NCBI RefSeq assembly: GCF_946187725.1
Contig: NZ_CAMHSK010000009.1
Coordinates: 1-64,000 of the forward strand
DNA length: 64,000 nt
Reading direction: 5' to 3'
From: an uncultured Treponema sp.
Lineage (GTDB): Bacteria; Spirochaetota; Spirochaetia; Treponematales; Treponemataceae
How positions within the stretch are numbered: position 1 is the first letter of the stretch; each line of letters starts with the position of its first letter. Under the pieces are notes generated by a model, which was not told the origin of the DNA, did not search any database, and worked only from the letters and a program-made list of their open reading frames with translations. The position numbers and the translations under genes were made by a program. Positions 596 through 19,497 of the stretch are shown here, in pieces.

Positions 596-3499
596 TTATT
601 TAAGCACTGAATTCAACACTTCGAGCAGGCGTTCTTCATCGATTGGCTTTGCGACATGGGCATTCATTCCGGCGGCGTAAGCGTTTCGTTTGTCTTCCTC
701 AAAGGCATTTGCGGTCATTGCGATGATTGGAATCTCGGCTTTTTGTTTGTCGGAAAGAAGCCGAATGTGCTTTGTTGCTTCGTATCCATTCATTTCTGGC
801 ATCTGAATGTCCATTAGTATCGCGTCGAAATAATCTGACGGCATCGACTCAACTTTTTGGAGGGCGTCTTTGCCGTTTACAGAAGTTTCGACCATGAATC
901 CCATTTCTCCGAGAAGCATCGCCGCAATCTCGCGGTTTACTTCAACATCATCGACAAGAAGCAGGCGTTTTTTAGTGAAATCGATTTTGTTATTCGAATC
1001 AGAATCTTTGGTTTCGTTCGGCTGTTCTGGATTCGCTTTCTGTTCAAGATTTTCGCAATTTTCTGTCTGAGTGTCGCTTGACTCCTGAACCCGGAGCGTC
1101 AGCTGGATTACAAATTCTGTGCCTTTTCCCTGCTCTGTATTGACGGTGATTTCGCCACCCATTAGGTCGATTATGCTCTTCGTGATTGCCATTCCAAGGC
1201 CTGTGCCCTGAATTCCGCTGACTGTGCTTGTGCGTTCCCGTTCAAAGGCCTCAAAGGCTCGTTCGGCAAATTCCTTGCTCATTCCGATTCCAGAATCTTT
1301 TACGATGATTTCGTAACTTGAAATGCCGTCTTTTTCTTCGCCTGTCTGAAGAATCTTAAGCGTGACTTCTCCATCTTCCGGGGTAAATTTGTAGGCATTG
1401 CTCAAAAGATTCAAGAGTACGCGGTTGAGCCTGTTTTTGTCGCACCAAACTTTGGGATTATGCAAATTCTCGCAGTCCACATTGAAGTTAATCCGCTTGA
1501 TTGACATTTGCGTAGCAAAAATATCTTGTACTTCCTTCAAAAGTTCCCTGAAATCGCACGGACTTTCTTCGATTTCCATTTTGCCGCTTTCGATTCGGCT
1601 CATTTCAAGGACATCGTTAATCAGCGCAAGAAGATGTTTGCTCGAAGAATCGATTTTTGAAAGGAACTCCCGCATTTCCTGTAGCGAAACGCCTTCTTTT
1701 TGAGCGAGTTTTGTATAGCCGATAATTGCATTCATCGGGGTTCGTATGTCGTGACTCATGTTTGAAAGAAAGGCCGTTTTTGCCTTGTTTGCCCTGTGCG
1801 CCTCCAGTTTTTCTTCCTCAAGGATTTTTTCTCGGCTTCTCATTCTTGAATAGACACTGAACATGATTCCGAGCGCAACAATAATCATAACGAGCTGGAC
1901 AAGACTGTTGTTCATAAGCTCGTCGAGGATTACAGACAGCTTGGAGTTGATGAAGGTCGTTGCTGAAAGCTGCAATTCTCTGTTCGCGACGAAGCCACGA
2001 CTCTGCATTTCATCAACATAGAATTCATTGATGTCGTTCAAGACAGTTTCGGTCGTTTTATGAGTTTTCTGGCGCATCCACATGATTGAAGTGAAAAAGA
2101 CCATGAAGATGAGGACAATCCAGACTATGGTTGATTTTCCGAAACGGCGTTCTTTGTCGTTCGTAAATACCGTGCGGAAGTAAAGGAAGCCGAATACACT
2201 CCAACAAGCCAGAATGAGGTATGATTCGGGCGAGAGCGCGTTGATTGACCAGAAATTCGGAACCATAAGGAAAAGGCTGAAGAAAATTGCCGAAACGATG
2301 CCTGTGATGCCTGTGAGCTTGATAATGAGGTTTTTCTCTGTTTTGGCAATTTTGTACGCGCAGGCAGATGTGTAGCCGTATGAGATTGCCGCTCCGATTG
2401 TGGTGACATCGACTATCCAGCCGATTGCAGTGCGACCCAAAAACGGGATGATTGCACAGGTGATGGAGATTAAAAGAATTGCGTTTACCGGAACCCCTTT
2501 TGAAGAAGTCTTTTTAAAGAAGGAAGGCAGAATTCCGTCATCGGCCATTGAATAGAGCAGCCTGCTTGCCGCGATTAAATTTCCGATGATTCCCGTGATG
2601 ATTGCCCCAAAGACTGCAAGTGAAAGTATGATTGTGCCGGTTTGGCCAGCGAAAGTCTTGATTGCGAAGAATACCGGCATGCTCACGAGATTGTATGCCG
2701 GAACGGCCGTGTAAGTGAGCAGCGTGTATGCGGCGAATCCAGCAAAAATCGCAATAAACATGATTGGAAGAGACTTTTTGCGCGAAAAGCGGAATTCTCT
2801 TGACGAATGAGAAATTGATTCAAATCCGATGAAAGCCCAGGGTGAAAGTGCTGCGATTGAAATGACTTGAATGAGCGGCTTGTCCATTGATTTCAAATTG
2901 TTGAAGGCGTGATTAAAGACCGTGTTGAATGATTCTGAAGATTTAATGGTAAAAAAGCACCAGAGTACGCCAAAAATCAAAAGGAAGGCAAGCACGGTCT
3001 GAATAATGACGGCCGTTCTTTTTGCGAAAATGCAGGTCAGCGTGATGAAGATGAGCATGGAGATTTCAAGAAGAACTTCGCCAAAATAAATGCTATAACC
3101 TGCTATAGAATAGTAGAAACCGAACTGAAAGAGCGTTCCAAAGATATTCCGCGCGATTAGTGCAAGCGCCGTGACATTTGCCCATGTAATCGCAATATAT
3201 GTAAGCGAGAGAAACCACGCGCTCAAAAAGGCATGGTCGTAACCAAAAATGTTCTTTGTATAGGAATAAGTGCCGCCAGCGTCATCATAGCGGTTTATCA
3301 TGAAGTGATAGTTCGCGCCAATCAGAAGCATGATTAGTGAGCCGAAAGCCATTCCGAGCGCGGTTCCAACAGGACCTGCAATCGGGAGAAATGTGGTGCC
3401 GGGCATGACGAATGCACCCCAGCCGACCGCAGAGCCGAAAGAAAGAGCCCAGGCTCCCGCAGGTGAAATATACCGTTCAAGATTTGCTTTTTCTGTCAT
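596..3499 (-). CDS. APC-type amino acid permease fused to hybrid histidine kinase and receiver
   Basis: A 967-residue inner-membrane protein with three parts. Residues about 10-470 are an amino acid/polyamine permease of the APC superfamily, with roughly a dozen hydrophobic segments and an N-terminal GSAVGWGAFVMPGT like other APC transporters. A further segment near 530-550 and a short coiled coil lead to the kinase core: H-box SHDIRTPMNAIIGY (His583), N-box around Asn701, G1 DSGIGM (735-740), G2 GTGLGM (765-770). A Ser/Asn/Glu-rich linker leads to a C-terminal receiver with Asp897 in LMDIQMP and Lys951. The ATG has AGGAA upstream. I infer that substrate binding or transport is sensed and passed by phosphorelay. 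The partner regulator is not obvious here. Domain calls are firm; the ligand is unknown. Confidence 0.9.
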   Translation of the reverse strand: MTEKANLERYISPAGAWALSFGSAVGWGAFVMPGTTFLPIAGPVGTALGMAFGSLIMLLIGANYHFMINRYDDAGGTYSYTKNIFGYDHAFLSAWFLSLTYIAITWANVTALALIARNIFGTLFQFGFYYSIAGYSIYFGEVLLEISMLIFITLTCIFAKRTAVIIQTVLAFLLIFGVLWCFFTIKSSESFNTVFNHAFNNLKSMDKPLIQVISIAALSPWAFIGFESISHSSREFRFSRKKSLPIMFIAIFAGFAAYTLLTYTAVPAYNLVSMPVFFAIKTFAGQTGTIILSLAVFGAIITGIIGNLIAASRLLYSMADDGILPSFFKKTSSKGVPVNAILLISITCAIIPFLGRTAIGWIVDVTTIGAAISYGYTSACAYKIAKTEKNLIIKLTGITGIVSAIFFSLFLMVPNFWSINALSPESYLILACWSVFGFLYFRTVFTNDKERRFGKSTIVWIVLIFMVFFTSIMWMRQKTHKTTETVLNDINEFYVDEMQSRGFVANRELQLSATTFINSKLSVILDELMNNSLVQLVMIIVALGIMFSVYSRMRSREKILEEEKLEAHRANKAKTAFLSNMSHDIRTPMNAIIGYTKLAQKEGVSLQEMREFLSKIDSSSKHLLALINDVLEMSRIESGKMEIEESPCDFRELLKEVQDIFATQMSIKRINFNVDCENLHNPKVWCDKNRLNRVLLNLLSNAYKFTPEDGEVTLKILQTGEEKDGISSYEIIVKDSGIGMSKEFAERAFEAFERERTSTVSGIQGTGLGMAITKSIIDLMGGEITVNTEQGKGTEFVIQLTLRVQESSDTQTENCENLEQKANPEQPNETKDSDSNNKIDFTKKRLLLVDDVEVNREIAAMLLGEMGFMVETSVNGKDALQKVESMPSDYFDAILMDIQMPEMNGYEATKHIRLLSDKQKAEIPIIAMTANAFEEDKRNAYAAGMNAHVAKPIDEERLLEVLNSVLK

Positions 3500-3589
3500 A
3501 AGAAAATTCCTATTACAAAATATTATACACGATTTTTGGAAATTTGCTTGTATCTTTGAGAAATTATATGTATTTTTAATATAGATAAT

Positions 3590-4192
3590 ATGGAAGATTT
3601 ATACGAAGTTTTAGGAATAACAAAAACAGCGACTCAGAGTGAAATAAAATCCGCTTATCGAAAACTTGCGGTCAAATACCATCCAGACAAAAATCCGGGT
3701 GACAAGGCCGCAGAAGAAAAATTCAAAAAAATTACTGCCGCTTACGATGTTCTTTCTGACGAAACAAAGCGCCGCCAGTACGATTCATACGGCTCTACAA
3801 ACTCTTACGGTTCAGGCTCTTCTTCAAATCCATATGGTTCTTACGGATGGAATCAGCAGGGAACCTGGCAGGGCCAGTGGCAGAGAGGCGGATGGAATGC
3901 CGAAACTCAGGATGATTTTAATGACGCGTTCAATCAGTGGTTTAATTACGCAAATTCACAGCGTCAGAACGAGCAGAATACCTACTACTATGATTTTAAG
4001 CGCGCAAGTGAACCGCAGACAAAATCAGAGAATATAGTTTACATTCTTCAGAAACTTGCGATTCTTCTGATTGGAGCATGGTCACTCAAATTCTCATGGA
4101 TTTTGCTCCCATTCGGCCCGATTTTGAGCTTTGCAGCTATTGTTCATGGCTTTACGGGAATCACAAGGGGTGTGAGAAGATTATTGAGATAG
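3590..4192 (+). CDS. Short membrane-anchored J-domain protein
   Basis: Two hundred residues. Residues 1-66 form a canonical J domain with the HPD motif (YHPDKNPGD) that stimulates DnaK ATPase. A Gly/Ser/Tyr/Trp/Gln-rich linker (about 67-130) follows, then a hydrophobic C-terminus (about 148-185) that is probably a membrane anchor. It lacks the zinc-finger and C-terminal substrate domains of DnaJ, so it is a type III J-protein rather than the general DnaJ. It is divergent from the permease-kinase gene across a 90-bp spacer. I infer that it recruits DnaK at the membrane; the client is unknown. Confidence 0.85.
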
Positions 4193-4218
4193 GATTTTAC
4201 TGAATTGAGAAAGCCTGA

Positions 4219-4233
4219 CCGTGCAATGCACGG
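4219..4233. terminator. Short perfect palindrome between convergent genes
   Basis: CCGTGCA-A-TGCACGG lies between the DnaJ-like gene and infA, which converge. The stem is perfect but has no T-run on either side, so terminator function is only plausible from its position. Confidence 0.4.
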
Positions 4234-4243
4234 CAGTGCCCGA

Positions 4244-4465
4244 TTATCGTTCGCGGAAAATGATACGACCGCGATTTAAATCGTATGGTGAAAGGGCAAC
4301 TTTCACGCTGTCGCCCGGTACGATTTTAATGTAGTGCTTTCGCATTTTGCCAGACAAATGCGCCATAACGACATGACCGCCGTTTTTGAGTTCAACTCGG
4401 AACTGTGTGTTTGGCAATGCTTCTTTTACAATGCCTTCGACTTCAATAGCTTCTTCTTTAGCCAC
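4244..4465 (-). CDS. infA: Translation initiation factor IF-1
   Basis: Seventy-three residues, the normal length for IF-1, and a single S1-like OB fold. Typical segments are [17 protein letters not shown], the central [20 protein letters not shown] and the C-terminal [14 protein letters not shown]. It binds the 30S A site and helps IF-2 and IF-3 during initiation. The start is GTG at 4465, with GGAGG six to eight bases upstream. It stands alone, not in a ribosomal protein operon, and is divergent from the DksA-like gene. Confidence 0.96.
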
Positions 4466-4586
4466 GATTCCTCCAAAAAATTGTACAAAAATCTTGCTGA
4501 AAAAATTATAGATTTTCCTTGTCTTTTCAAGATTTCTCCCTTATTATTATCTAATAATAAAAAAAATTGTCAACATGGGAGTAATC

Positions 4587-4943
4587 ATGGAACAGGCATT
4601 CATTGAAAAAATGCAGGTAGCTCTTACGGAGCAAAAAGAACAAATCTTAAAATCATTGGCGGACAAACATTCTGAATATAAAAAGATGGTTGAAAGCGGA
4701 GAGCCGGGAGATGAAGTTGATATCGCATCTGATGTAATCGACGGTGCATTGCTCGAATCTTTGGGCGCTCAGGATGCTAATCGTCTCACGATGATTAACA
4801 ACGCTTTGGACAGAATCCAGCAGGGCAAATACGGCATTTGTCTCAAATGTCACAAAGAAATCCCTGTGGAGCGACTTGAAGCAATTCCTTACGCGTTCAT
4901 GTGCATTACCTGTCAGAGCGAAAACGAACGCAGAAACAGATAG
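4587..4943 (+). CDS. TraR/DksA-family zinc-finger protein
   Basis: A 118-residue protein with an N-terminal coiled coil and a C-terminal four-Cys zinc finger, CLKC...CITC. The coiled-coil tip carries DEVDIA, fitting the DxxDxA signature with which DksA enters the RNA polymerase secondary channel. I chose ATG 4587 because GGGAG (4577-4581) is correctly spaced before it; an in-frame ATG at 4575 has no Shine-Dalgarno. The likely role is transcription regulation with ppGpp. A divergent promoter region is shared with infA. The symbol is withheld because TraR/DksA-like paralogs are common. Confidence 0.88.
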   Translation: MEQAFIEKMQVALTEQKEQILKSLADKHSEYKKMVESGEPGDEVDIASDVIDGALLESLGAQDANRLTMINNALDRIQQGKYGICLKCHKEIPVERLEAIPYAFMCITCQSENERRNR

Positions 4944-4976
4944 ATTTTCAGCTTCTATTTTGAGGCGTGCACTTTG

Positions 4977-5843
4977 CTAGATTCTGCAGAATTTATAGCC
5001 GGTTCGGTCGATGTCGTAAATGACTTCGCTGTAACCGGCTTTTTTTGCGAGTGCGATTGTCTGGTCAAAGGCACAGTCGAGGCTTTCTGCTGCGTGCGCG
5101 TCTGCCGTAATTGCGACAGGAACGCCTTCTTCATAAAGAAGACCCAAAAAATACTCGCTGGGGTAGGGCTTTGAAAGCCAGTTCCTGCTGATTGCACCGC
5201 TGTTGATTTCTGTGGCACGACCGCTTTTTGCGATAGCCTTTGCCATTTCTTTCAGTTCATTTTTGTACCATTCTTCATTTTCATCAAAAAACGGAAATTT
5301 CTCGTTAAATTTGCGGATTAAATCAGGATGACCGAGAAGTTCAAAATCTCCCTTTTCAAGCATTTCCCGTTGGAGAGCAAAATAATCTGCGATGGCGGCC
5401 TTCATATTTCCGTTGTAGTGTTCAGCGACACCGTTTGCCCAAACTGTCGGCGTATTGTCGACTCCAAAAACTCCGTTCCGCTGAAAAATATAATGCACTG
5501 AGCCAATGAGATAGTCCGGCTTGAATTCCGCGTAATTTGCATGGCGCGGGAAAGTGATTCCGGGAATAAAATCTGCTTCAAAAGCAAGGCGAATCTTGAT
5601 TTTATCCTCGTACTTTTTTTGAAGACGGTGGATTTCCTGGCAGTAAGCGGGAAAATCTTCGACCTTCATGTTACATTCAGTCCAGAACGGGTACATTGAA
5701 TGCGAGGTAAAACCAAGCACGCGGATTCCTTTTTGAATTGCCGAAAGCACATTTTCTTCGGGCGTGTTTTTTCCGTCGCAGAAAGTTGAATGTGTATGCA
5801 GGTTTGATTTTATGTATTCGTTTTCGATTTTCTCTGTGTTCAT
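4977..5843 (-). CDS. PHP-domain phosphoesterase, histidinol-phosphatase type (HisK/HisJ family)
   Basis: A 288-residue PHP-fold metal-dependent phosphatase. The first metal motif NLHTHSTFCDGK is near residue 14, followed by GFTSHSMYPF, and there are later His/Asp ligands in IGSVHYIF, LLGHPDLIRKF and ITADAHAAES. Histidinol phosphatases of this type remove phosphate in histidine synthesis, but no his gene is nearby. It overlaps the upstream hybrid kinase by 4 bp (ATGA), so the two are translated together. I therefore leave open that the substrate is a signalling phosphoester. Fold confidence is high; substrate confidence is low. Confidence 0.8.
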   Translation of the reverse strand: MNTEKIENEYIKSNLHTHSTFCDGKNTPEENVLSAIQKGIRVLGFTSHSMYPFWTECNMKVEDFPAYCQEIHRLQKKYEDKIKIRLAFEADFIPGITFPRHANYAEFKPDYLIGSVHYIFQRNGVFGVDNTPTVWANGVAEHYNGNMKAAIADYFALQREMLEKGDFELLGHPDLIRKFNEKFPFFDENEEWYKNELKEMAKAIAKSGRATEINSGAISRNWLSKPYPSEYFLGLLYEEGVPVAITADAHAAESLDCAFDQTIALAKKAGYSEVIYDIDRTGYKFCRI

Positions 5844-16975: not shown

Positions 16976-17329
16976 GTGAATATCGAAGTTTTGAAATCTA
17001 AATTGCATCGTGCTACTGTGACTCAGACTATTTTGGATTATGAAGGGTCCATTTCTATTGATACGGAGCTTGTTAAAAAGGCGGGGATGCATCTTTGGGA
17101 AAAGGTTGAGATTTTCAACATCAACAACGGTGCGCGACTTGCAACCTACATCATTCCTGGAAAGAAGGGCGAATTCTGCCTTAACGGAGCGGCCGCTCGT
17201 CTTGCACAGCCGGGAGACAAAATCATCGTCGTTACTTACACCTGGATTGACGAGAAGGACGCGGATTCATGGAAGCCGAAGATTGTCCTTTTGAACGACG
17301 ACAATTCGGTTAAGGAAGTCAAAGAATAG
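16976..17329 (+). CDS. panD: Aspartate 1-decarboxylase proenzyme
   Basis: A 117-residue pyruvoyl enzyme that makes beta-alanine for PanC. The self-cleavage site Gly-Ser is visible in YEGSISID (about residues 22-29), and the C-terminal beta-barrel segments NGAAARLAQPGDKIIVVTY are typical. The start is GTG, with AGGAGA upstream. It completes the pan/coa set; the next gene begins 15 bp later on the same strand. Confidence 0.95.
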   Translation: MNIEVLKSKLHRATVTQTILDYEGSISIDTELVKKAGMHLWEKVEIFNINNGARLATYIIPGKKGEFCLNGAAARLAQPGDKIIVVTYTWIDEKDADSWKPKIVLLNDDNSVKEVKE

Positions 17330-17344: not shown

Positions 17345-18337
17345 ATGAAGTCTCGTTTTTTCCTGGCATTTTTTAGTTTTCTTCCGATTTTCTCTTTTGC
17401 GGAGATTCCGCTGCATTTTTCGCTTGAACCGTATTTTGCTTATTCGCAGGGGCAGATAAATGAACTTCTGTATGATGAGTGGCATTCCGGGCGGATTTTG
17501 AGCAGTCTTGAATGGGACAGGAATTTGTTCTTAATCGGTGTGGATTCCGCGTGCTCTTTTGGGCGGCTCAATTTGTCGGTTGATTTTTCATCTTCGGTGC
17601 CACAGGATAGTGGCAACATGCAGGATTCTGACTGGATGAACCAATCGGCTCCACAAATGCGTACGACTTATTCTTGCGGGACTAACGAAGCTGTTCAGAA
17701 TTATGACACGAATCTTTCGCTTTCCTTTGATTTTTTTCCTTTTAATTCGGCGGATGAGAGGGTACTGGTTTTTTCGCCGATGGCACAAGTTCAATATGCC
17801 TACGATTCTTTTGAGCGCACTAAGGCAAAGGGCTGGTACGGTCAGGGCACCTACTCTTCGGATTCTAAAAATCACTGGTGGTACGAAGAAGAAGCAAAGC
17901 GTTTCCCGGTGACTTACTGGAACGATTCAAAAGGCCGCTATGTCACCCAAAGGCTTGCCGGAGTTTCCTTTAGTCAGCATATTTTTTCAACTTTTATCGG
18001 GGCGAAAATTGCTGCAAGAGTCTCAAAAAGGCTTTCGTTCGATTTTTCGGCTTTATTTTCACCATTTTCATACACTGAATTTACGGACACTCATCACGGA
18101 AGCGAAACGCGCTATTCCCATGCAGGCAGAAATTTCTGGAAGCAGGCAAAATATTCTTTTGGCGGAGACTTTGCTTTTTCAAAAAGACTTTCACTGAATC
18201 TTTCTGGCTCAATTTTTTCTTTCCAGCGCACCAAGGGCACTTTTTACATTGATGGAATCAAAGATTATGCCCATAAGAACGGAACGGGGCGTTTTTCGAT
18301 GACGGCAAAGGCCGGGATTCGCGTGAAAGTTTTATGA
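17345..18337 (+). CDS. Omptin-family outer-membrane aspartyl protease (OmpT/Pla-like)
   Basis: A 330-residue protein with a signal peptide (cleavage near residue 19, FSFA-E), then alternating beta-strand pattern to a C-terminal strand. It follows the omptin plan: GQINELLYDEWHSGRILSSLEW matches the OmpT N-terminal strand region, GNMQDSDWMN gives the Asp pair (Asp94, Asp96) equivalent to OmpT Asp83/Asp85, and TDTHHG gives the Asp-His pair (Asp248, His250) equivalent to Asp210/His212. A ten-stranded barrel protease facing outward is therefore likely, and the catalytic set is complete. It lies 15 bp after panD, apparently in the same transcript. Omptins are best known in Enterobacteriaceae. Confidence 0.87.
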   Translation: MKSRFFLAFFSFLPIFSFAEIPLHFSLEPYFAYSQGQINELLYDEWHSGRILSSLEWDRNLFLIGVDSACSFGRLNLSVDFSSSVPQDSGNMQDSDWMNQSAPQMRTTYSCGTNEAVQNYDTNLSLSFDFFPFNSADERVLVFSPMAQVQYAYDSFERTKAKGWYGQGTYSSDSKNHWWYEEEAKRFPVTYWNDSKGRYVTQRLAGVSFSQHIFSTFIGAKIAARVSKRLSFDFSALFSPFSYTEFTDTHHGSETRYSHAGRNFWKQAKYSFGGDFAFSKRLSLNLSGSIFSFQRTKGTFYIDGIKDYAHKNGTGRFSMTAKAGIRVKVL

Positions 18338-18357: not shown

Positions 18358-19497
18358 ATGAAGCGCACTTTTCTTCTATATATATTGTTTTTTTTCTCCA
18401 TTCCGATTTTTGCGCAGTTTTTCTCGAAGAACAAATTCCGTGATTTGCAAGTCAAAGCTCACTCGGAGATTTTCTTTACGCAGACCGAAAATTGTTATGC
18501 GCTTGAACTTCCAGGGGTAGACCCGTCTTTGATTCAGATGGAGCTTCCTGAACTTCCTTTGGGCACAAAATTCATTTCATCAAAAAAAGAAGGATTCCGT
18601 GCGGATTCGGGCGAGTTGGGCACAGTCATTTCGCTTTGGTTCAATTTCGCGTATTCGGGTGTCACGCGTATTCCGCCGCTGCTCGTAAAAATCAAAAACA
18701 GAACTTACTACTTTGAATTCGAAAAGGTGATGGTTCATGAAAATCCGAGCCTGATTTCCCCGGTTCTTGAAATCGTGTTCGAAAATCCCAAAAATCTGAT
18801 TTCTGACAAAAAAACTGGCCGCAAAACGCTGAAAGTCCGCAAGGGCGAAAAGATTTCTTTCGTGCTCTCTTTGCGCTATGCCGTTCAGGTTCTTGATTTT
18901 TCATGGAAGATTCCAAAGGATTCAATTTTTACTGAAACCGAACGGTTTGATTTTGCGAACGGAATCACTAAAATCACTCAGTTTACGGGCGATGCAAAAA
19001 ATCTTTCAAGGTTTGATTGGCAGATTTTAAAAGACGGCACTTTCAGCTTGCCAGAAATTTCGGTCAGGGCACTGGCTTACAACGGTTCGCAAAAAGAACT
19101 TCATCTGAATCAGAATATTGCGCTCGCTGTTTCCGGGGTGGCATCTAATCTTTCTGATGACAAAGGAATCAAAGGCAGTGATGTTTTTTCTGCGGCGTTC
19201 GAAAAACCTTCTGAGCAAGATTTTGCCGAAAAGCAAAAAGCTTTCACCCGCGAGGACTGTGAAATCATGTCTCAAAAAGAAAGGCGCTCGCTGATGCAGA
19301 AACTTTTCGGGAAAAAATATGCAGTTTTTTCTGGTGGCGAGATTTATCCTGTTCCCGAAAAAAAATCAAACGGGCAGGCCTTTTCCGGCGGTCAGAAAGT
19401 AAAAGTCAGCGAGCAGGCCGGGGAATGGGCTTTCGTGGAATGTAACGAATTTTCCGGCTGGACATTAAATGAAAATCTGTTTGAAATAAGAGGATAA
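18358..19497 (+). CDS. Secreted protein with BatD-like region and C-terminal SH3-like domain
   Basis: From ATG 18358 this is 379 residues with a clear signal peptide (MKRTFLLYILFFFSIPIFAQ). An in-frame ATG at 18334 overlaps the omptin stop but would put eight odd residues before it. Residues about 30-130 alternate like the beta domains of BatD ('oxygen tolerance') proteins, including YSGVTRIPPLLVKIKNRTYY. The last ~55 residues (YPVPEKKS to the end) look like a bacterial SH3 domain, with WAFVECNEFSGWTLNENL. I do not recognise the full protein. It sits between omptin and Smr genes. Confidence 0.6.
   Translation: MKRTFLLYILFFFSIPIFAQFFSKNKFRDLQVKAHSEIFFTQTENCYALELPGVDPSLIQMELPELPLGTKFISSKKEGFRADSGELGTVISLWFNFAYSGVTRIPPLLVKIKNRTYYFEFEKVMVHENPSLISPVLEIVFENPKNLISDKKTGRKTLKVRKGEKISFVLSLRYAVQVLDFSWKIPKDSIFTETERFDFANGITKITQFTGDAKNLSRFDWQILKDGTFSLPEISVRALAYNGSQKELHLNQNIALAVSGVASNLSDDKGIKGSDVFSAAFEKPSEQDFAEKQKAFTREDCEIMSQKERRSLMQKLFGKKYAVFSGGEIYPVPEKKSNGQAFSGGQKVKVSEQAGEWAFVECNEFSGWTLNENLFEIRG

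Follow-up and report, generated by a model that had tools for sequence, protein, structure and literature searches.

A predicted omptin protease in a treponeme without the lipid A enzymes LpxC and LpxK

Introduction

The closest described relatives of the protein reported here are OmpT, Pla, PgtE and SopA (Pfam PF01278; MEROPS A26), with which it shares a predicted ten-stranded barrel, the catalytic tetrad, the equivalents of OmpT E27 and S99 and a full-length profile match. In the literature, omptins are best known from Enterobacteriaceae (PMC5406399, PMC3724046) and require rough LPS (PMC3724046). A need for LPS is regarded as a defining feature of the family; the mechanism by which LPS activates the enzyme is unsettled. 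The lipid A motif of OmpT consists of Y134, E136, R138, R175 and K226. OmpT mutants without three or all five of these residues kept low activity, which LPS raised (PMC7356225), and a study of Pla names R138 and R171 as important for its LPS requirement (PMC7696990). PMC11410778 assigns E27 and D208 to the S1 pocket and D97 to the S1′ pocket.

The Pom family (PF17251, Protochlamydia outer membrane protein) offers a second comparison, PomS/T being described in PMC4827864 as having limited similarity to omptins. A spirochaete protein, LIC20019 of Leptospira, has been modelled as Pla-like (PMC5406399); unlike the treponeme studied here, Leptospira makes LPS, and it belongs to another class. The enzymes of Kdo2-lipid A synthesis are absent in T. 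denticola, T. pallidum and Borrelia according to PMC3087551. An open-access literature search, with subscription journals mostly outside its reach, found no paper on a treponemal omptin. Here we describe an omptin gene in a 64,000-nt stretch of an uncultured Treponema sp. (positions 1 to 64,000 of contig NZ_CAMHSK010000009.1, assembly GCF_946187725.1), referred to as the window, and its relatives across the spirochaetes.

Sequence and predicted fold of the window protein

The open reading frame at 17345–18337 on the forward strand starts with ATG and comprises 330 codons, encoding a predicted omptin-family outer-membrane protease of 330 residues. Approximately residues 1–20 (17345–17404, forward strand) form a probable signal peptide, recognized by eye as a basic stretch followed by a hydrophobic one and FAE; the predicted model has a low-confidence helix at residues 2–16. 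The sole Pfam-A match is Omptin (PF01278), with 42.1 bits (E = 7.4e-11) against a curated cut-off of 22.6 bits. A phmmer comparison with PDB sequences returned only Pla (6e-5). Profile A1, built from the window protein together with 27 treponemal relatives (28 rows in all), retrieved both Pla (1.2e-22) and OmpT (6.8e-18) over their full lengths with the tetrad aligned. The nearest homologues are from Treponema, the closest being just 50% identical, and the median identity to OmpT over 97 aligned relatives is 18%. Named relatives come from Treponema of goat, sheep and roe deer forestomach, an uncultured bin, UBA4326, Candidatus T. equifaecale and T. berlinense. A single-protein scan of genome contigs yielded no relatives, and none were found in viral contigs.

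An AlphaFold2 model built from ten sequences (alignment A3) has a mean pLDDT of 80.6, a pTM of 0.77 and ten long strands. Foldseek hits to the model at ranks 1–11 are omptins throughout. In VIA-align, seven omptin rows score Z 28.5–25.9, with rmsd values of 2.4–4.2 over 245–278 residues, and the first non-omptin fold follows at Z 18.1. The predicted structure is that of a ten-stranded outer-membrane barrel whose best structural matches are OmpT and Pla. The initial annotation had recognized an omptin with conserved barrel strands in this spirochaete, and both the profile search and the structural comparison bear it out. It had also named a missing ten-stranded barrel or misplaced Asp/His pairs as grounds for rejection; the part of that check that was run gave ten strands and placed both pairs at strand ends (residues 87–94 and 230–250). 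As far as sequence and predicted structure can settle the matter, the window protein is a true omptin.

Active site and specificity residues

Alignments place D94, D96, D248 and H250 at OmpT D83, D85, D210 and H212, so that the two catalytic pairs lie where they had initially been assigned: D94-S95-D96 at 17624–17632 and D248-T249-H250 at 18086–18094 (both forward strand). All four residues are invariant across the 28 rows of A1. We extended the comparison to 118 full-length spirochaete omptins, obtained as omptin reading frames by profile search of the fetched loci after removal of identical rows, a set that leaves out four half-gene fragments and relatives found later. The whole tetrad is kept in 114 of them; the exceptions are D83N in L039, L046 and L191 and a dead copy at L183 (E/G/D/Y). 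When the 297 OmpT positions are ranked by identity to OmpT over these 118 rows, the tetrad occupies ranks 1, 4, 5 and 7 (P ~1e-7 with columns treated as independent). Chance resemblance to omptins is rejected on these ranks. The L183 locus (2066–5369, reverse strand), from another class, carries three tandem omptins; the outer two keep all four catalytic residues, and the middle copy retains just one.

Among the specificity residues, OmpT E27 is kept as E40 (17462–17464, forward strand). OmpT S99 corresponds to S110 (17672–17674, forward strand), a position that is Ser in 92 of 97 rows and invariant in the 28 rows of A1. Unlike in OmpT, D208 is replaced by F246, D97 by T108 and H101 by G112, leaving E27 as the only member of the OmpT-type dibasic acid set (E27, D208, D97). 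Two combinations are commonest across the 118 rows, E27 paired with a small side chain at 208 and Tyr at 27 paired with D208, so that a single S1 acid is the usual state in these alignments, and either acid apparently suffices. Several rows from other classes (L173 and L176–L188) have Tyr at OmpT 27 and keep D208, the reverse of the treponemal pattern. With T108 and F246 standing in for OmpT D97 and D208, cleavage at dibasic sites is not to be taken for granted, and an assay with dibasic peptides may miss activity. The same two replacements, together with G112 in place of H101, could also impair catalysis or specificity.

Paralogues and the integrity of the window copy

Profile A1 finds four omptin copies in the window's own genome, one of them with an in-frame stop, whereas Pfam finds one. 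The second copy, on contig C20 (L140:6394–7452), is split by an in-frame TGA; the third (L140:8736–9749) is intact. A VWA-domain protein is encoded just upstream of the split C20 copy. The fourth, on contig C27 (L170:1498–2562, reverse strand), has the full tetrad and lies beside a pseudouridine synthase gene (PF00849). This C27 omptin is missed by the Pfam Omptin model and instead gives a weak match to Pom (PF17251; E = 5e-4, below the cut-off), suggesting that the Omptin and Pom families may touch; the window protein itself, by contrast, matches Omptin and not Pom.

A quick tree (125 rows) joins the window protein to a sequence from genome G084 (support 99) within a 28-row genus clade (support 97). 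Members of this clade lie directly behind members of the C27 clade at L020, L089, L142, L151, L152 and L158. A pseudouridine synthase gene occurs within four genes of the omptin at 34 of 81 loci and is directly upstream of it in 12 of the 14 positions listed. The search for conserved partner genes of omptins returned this pseudouridine synthase site and no functional partner. The simplest reading is that an older omptin was tandemly duplicated and its copies then dispersed, the window gene being a dispersed paralogue of the omptin commonly found beside the pseudouridine synthase. The window clade also has a copy broken into two frames at each of two loci, L065 (G018:C7) and L166 (T. berlinense).

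A degenerate paralogue, in which barrel and tetrad persist in a protein that is mainly an adhesin or inert while the older copy beside the pseudouridine synthase does the work, would account for the four copies in this genome, one of them (contig C20, of the window clade) interrupted, the loss of the H101, D208 and D97 equivalents, the broken window-clade copy at L065 and the dead middle copy in the tandem triplet at L183. Against it, the 330-codon frame is intact, and the tetrad, invariant in all 28 aligned relatives, is complete even though the nearest homologue is only 50% identical. We therefore consider degeneration unlikely, if the strongest of the competing readings, and a working protease the probable state of the window copy.

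Omptins across the spirochaetes

The initial annotation had taken omptins to be typical of Enterobacteriaceae; that they are foreign to spirochaetes is not supported by the distribution of the family. A Pfam Omptin match is present in 74 of 98 genomes drawn from the genus and in 120 of 392 genomes (48 of 166 genera) drawn from the phylum; among genus genomes with completeness of 90% or more and contamination of 5% or less, the proportion is 42 of 45. The 120 phylum carriers comprise 45 from the genus, 23 from the rest of the family, 17 from the order, 13 from the class and 22 from other classes. All of these tallies are lower bounds, because Pfam undercounts treponemal omptins: the window's own genome gives one by Pfam and four by profile A1.

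Several individual sequences deserve mention. A spirochaete omptin at G305:C1:1883422–1884312 (L022), placed among its own order in the quick tree, has a Pfam score of 277 bits, well in excess of every other one. A close relative of L022 was probably among the sequences behind the Pfam Omptin model, which would mean that spirochaete omptins were already implicit in the databases. At L062 (7236–9677), an 814-codon frame contains the omptin in its last third only (Pfam match 553–757) and is possibly a fusion or a long upstream open frame. E. coli OmpT (L049) nests among the spirochaete rows, beside three sequences from other families of the class (support 95), a placement that, with a single proteobacterial row in the tree, does not reveal which way transfer went.

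Lipid A synthesis and the lipid A motif

The omptin, LpxC and LpxK phylum draws comprised 392 genomes each and were taken as one set, the genome handles agreeing where shown. LpxC (PF03331), which catalyzes the committed step of lipid A synthesis, was found in 110 genomes, every one in other classes, and LpxK (PF02606) in 54, with none in this class. Neither enzyme was found by profile search in the window's own genome, and the E. coli control genome was positive for both, in agreement with the earlier statement that many treponemes lack LPS; for incomplete genomes such an absence is weaker evidence per genome. LpxC carries the argument because LpxK misses the f29/g78 group (probably Leptospira), which LpxC finds. 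No LpxC match is present in 113 of the 120 omptin carriers, including all 98 carriers in this class; the seven genomes with both are G105, G109, G118, G130, G183, G226 and G264. Unlike the hosts of OmpT and Pla, therefore, this treponeme, like its whole class, appears to be without the lipid A pathway and unable to make LPS. What surprises is not a single omptin but how many omptins keep the complete tetrad in a class that apparently lacks lipid A synthesis.

The lipid A motif itself is not maintained. At least three of its five residues occur together in 0 of 118 rows; R138 is found in 13 and R175 in 6, and no row has both. The motif positions rank from 83 to 275 of 297 for conservation. The window protein, unlike OmpT, lacks the motif, having V, Y, Y, H and R at the five positions in the larger alignment and Y, Y, S, H and R in the first; the register of strand 134–138 is uncertain by two, with no Arg or Lys at the R138 site in either case, and the R at position 226 lies within a poorly aligned loop. 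In either register, the same-face residues near the motif are V149, Y151, Y153 and S155. Motif loss does not prove LPS independence, because OmpT mutants without all five residues are still stimulated by LPS. Arg or Lys occupies OmpT position 138 in 4 of 9 omptins of LpxC genomes, a count that includes a single one of two near-identical G118 copies, versus 13 of 108 omptins from other genomes (Fisher P = 0.025). The idea that a basic residue at 138 tracks LPS was set aside, as ancestry is not the same in the two groups and the alignment of this strand may be out of register.

LPS is abundant in rumen, omasum and gut. The window omptin might accordingly remain LPS-dependent and take its LPS from LPS-bearing gut neighbours; its relatives are of rumen, omasum and gut origin, and published omptins need LPS (PMC3724046). 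Such borrowing would have to serve carriers across the whole class (98 class genomes) while leaving the lipid A motif unmaintained in all 118 rows, and we consider it improbable. An enzyme that works without LPS fits better: with LpxC and LpxK absent, omptin activity would depend on another lipid, as the initial annotation had proposed, or on none. The window's own genome encodes an LptF/LptG pair (contig C8:41898–44041; L192 and L193). In a genome that lacks LpxC and LpxK, such a pair probably carries a different lipid to the outer membrane, and a lipid travelling by this route is a plausible candidate for the omptin partner. LptD (PF04453) gave no Pfam match in the same genome, a negative that does not count as absence because the spirochaete protein may have diverged beyond the reach of the Pfam model.

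Genomic position

The forward-strand gene order is panB, panC, coaC-like, coaB-like, coaX, panD, omptin, a gene for a probably secreted protein and one for an Smr protein. The stop codon of panD (16976–17329, forward strand; PF02261, E = 2.4e-44) lies 15 nt before the omptin start, and a promoter and terminator scan found nothing separating the two genes. The downstream neighbour (18358–19497, forward strand) encodes 379 residues from an internal ATG, or 387 from position 18334. Judged by eye, its product has a signal-peptide-like N-terminus and an SH3-type repeat-like C-terminus; it has no Pfam match at E ≤ 0.01.

The gene had been described as part of the CoA operon, which is right as to its place, directly behind panD on the same strand, but does not extend to a conserved position. 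Searches of 196 genus genomes gave 43 panD matches, 30 of them with loci and 29 of these outside the window's own genome. At these 29 loci, coaX is beside panD in 27 and an omptin follows panD in none, although three of the loci end within 0.7 kb downstream. Homologues of pan or coa genes were likewise not found beside the fetched omptins whose neighbours were inspected. The notion that the omptin serves the pantothenate/CoA pathway or is purposefully co-regulated with it, which the 15-nt spacing on one strand invites, is thus rejected as highly improbable, and the position behind these genes means little and carries no functional message. Enterobacterial contamination or recent transfer, suggested by the family's best-known hosts, is the least credible reading of all and is refuted by the distance of OmpT from all relatives, the Treponema origin of the nearest homologues and the treponemal neighbours on the contig (panD 97% to G467).

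Proposed function and significance

We favor a reading in which the window gene encodes a working omptin with a rim-facing protease site that is active without LPS; taken as a whole, and judged from alignments and the predicted model, this explanation is likely. The protein would form a ten-stranded outer-membrane barrel with the protease site at its outward-facing rim, where D94/D96 and D248/H250 would activate water for peptide bond cleavage as in OmpT and Pla. E40 in the S1 pocket would maintain a preference for a basic P1 residue, and loss of the S1′ acid would weaken the need for a second basic residue at P1′. The enzyme would work without LPS; either the barrel alone or a different glycolipid of the outer membrane, with LptF/LptG as its plausible exporter, would hold it in shape. 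Its probable role would be to shave basic peptides or proteins, such as antimicrobial peptides, at the cell surface in the gut. The window copy itself would be a dispersed paralogue that ended up behind the pantothenate/CoA genes.

More tentatively, and with somewhat less than even confidence, we suggest that the omptins of Treponema and the remainder of its class, diderms that lack LPS, form a whole branch that uses a different activating lipid, plausibly an LptF/LptG-exported glycolipid, or none. The need for LPS would then have arisen later or in particular lineages, and the omptin fold itself would not impose it. A natural set of omptins in which the catalytic site is kept and LPS is absent provides a ready control against OmpT for asking which part of activation belongs to the fold. 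It also supplies a candidate surface protease for common gut and rumen treponemes.
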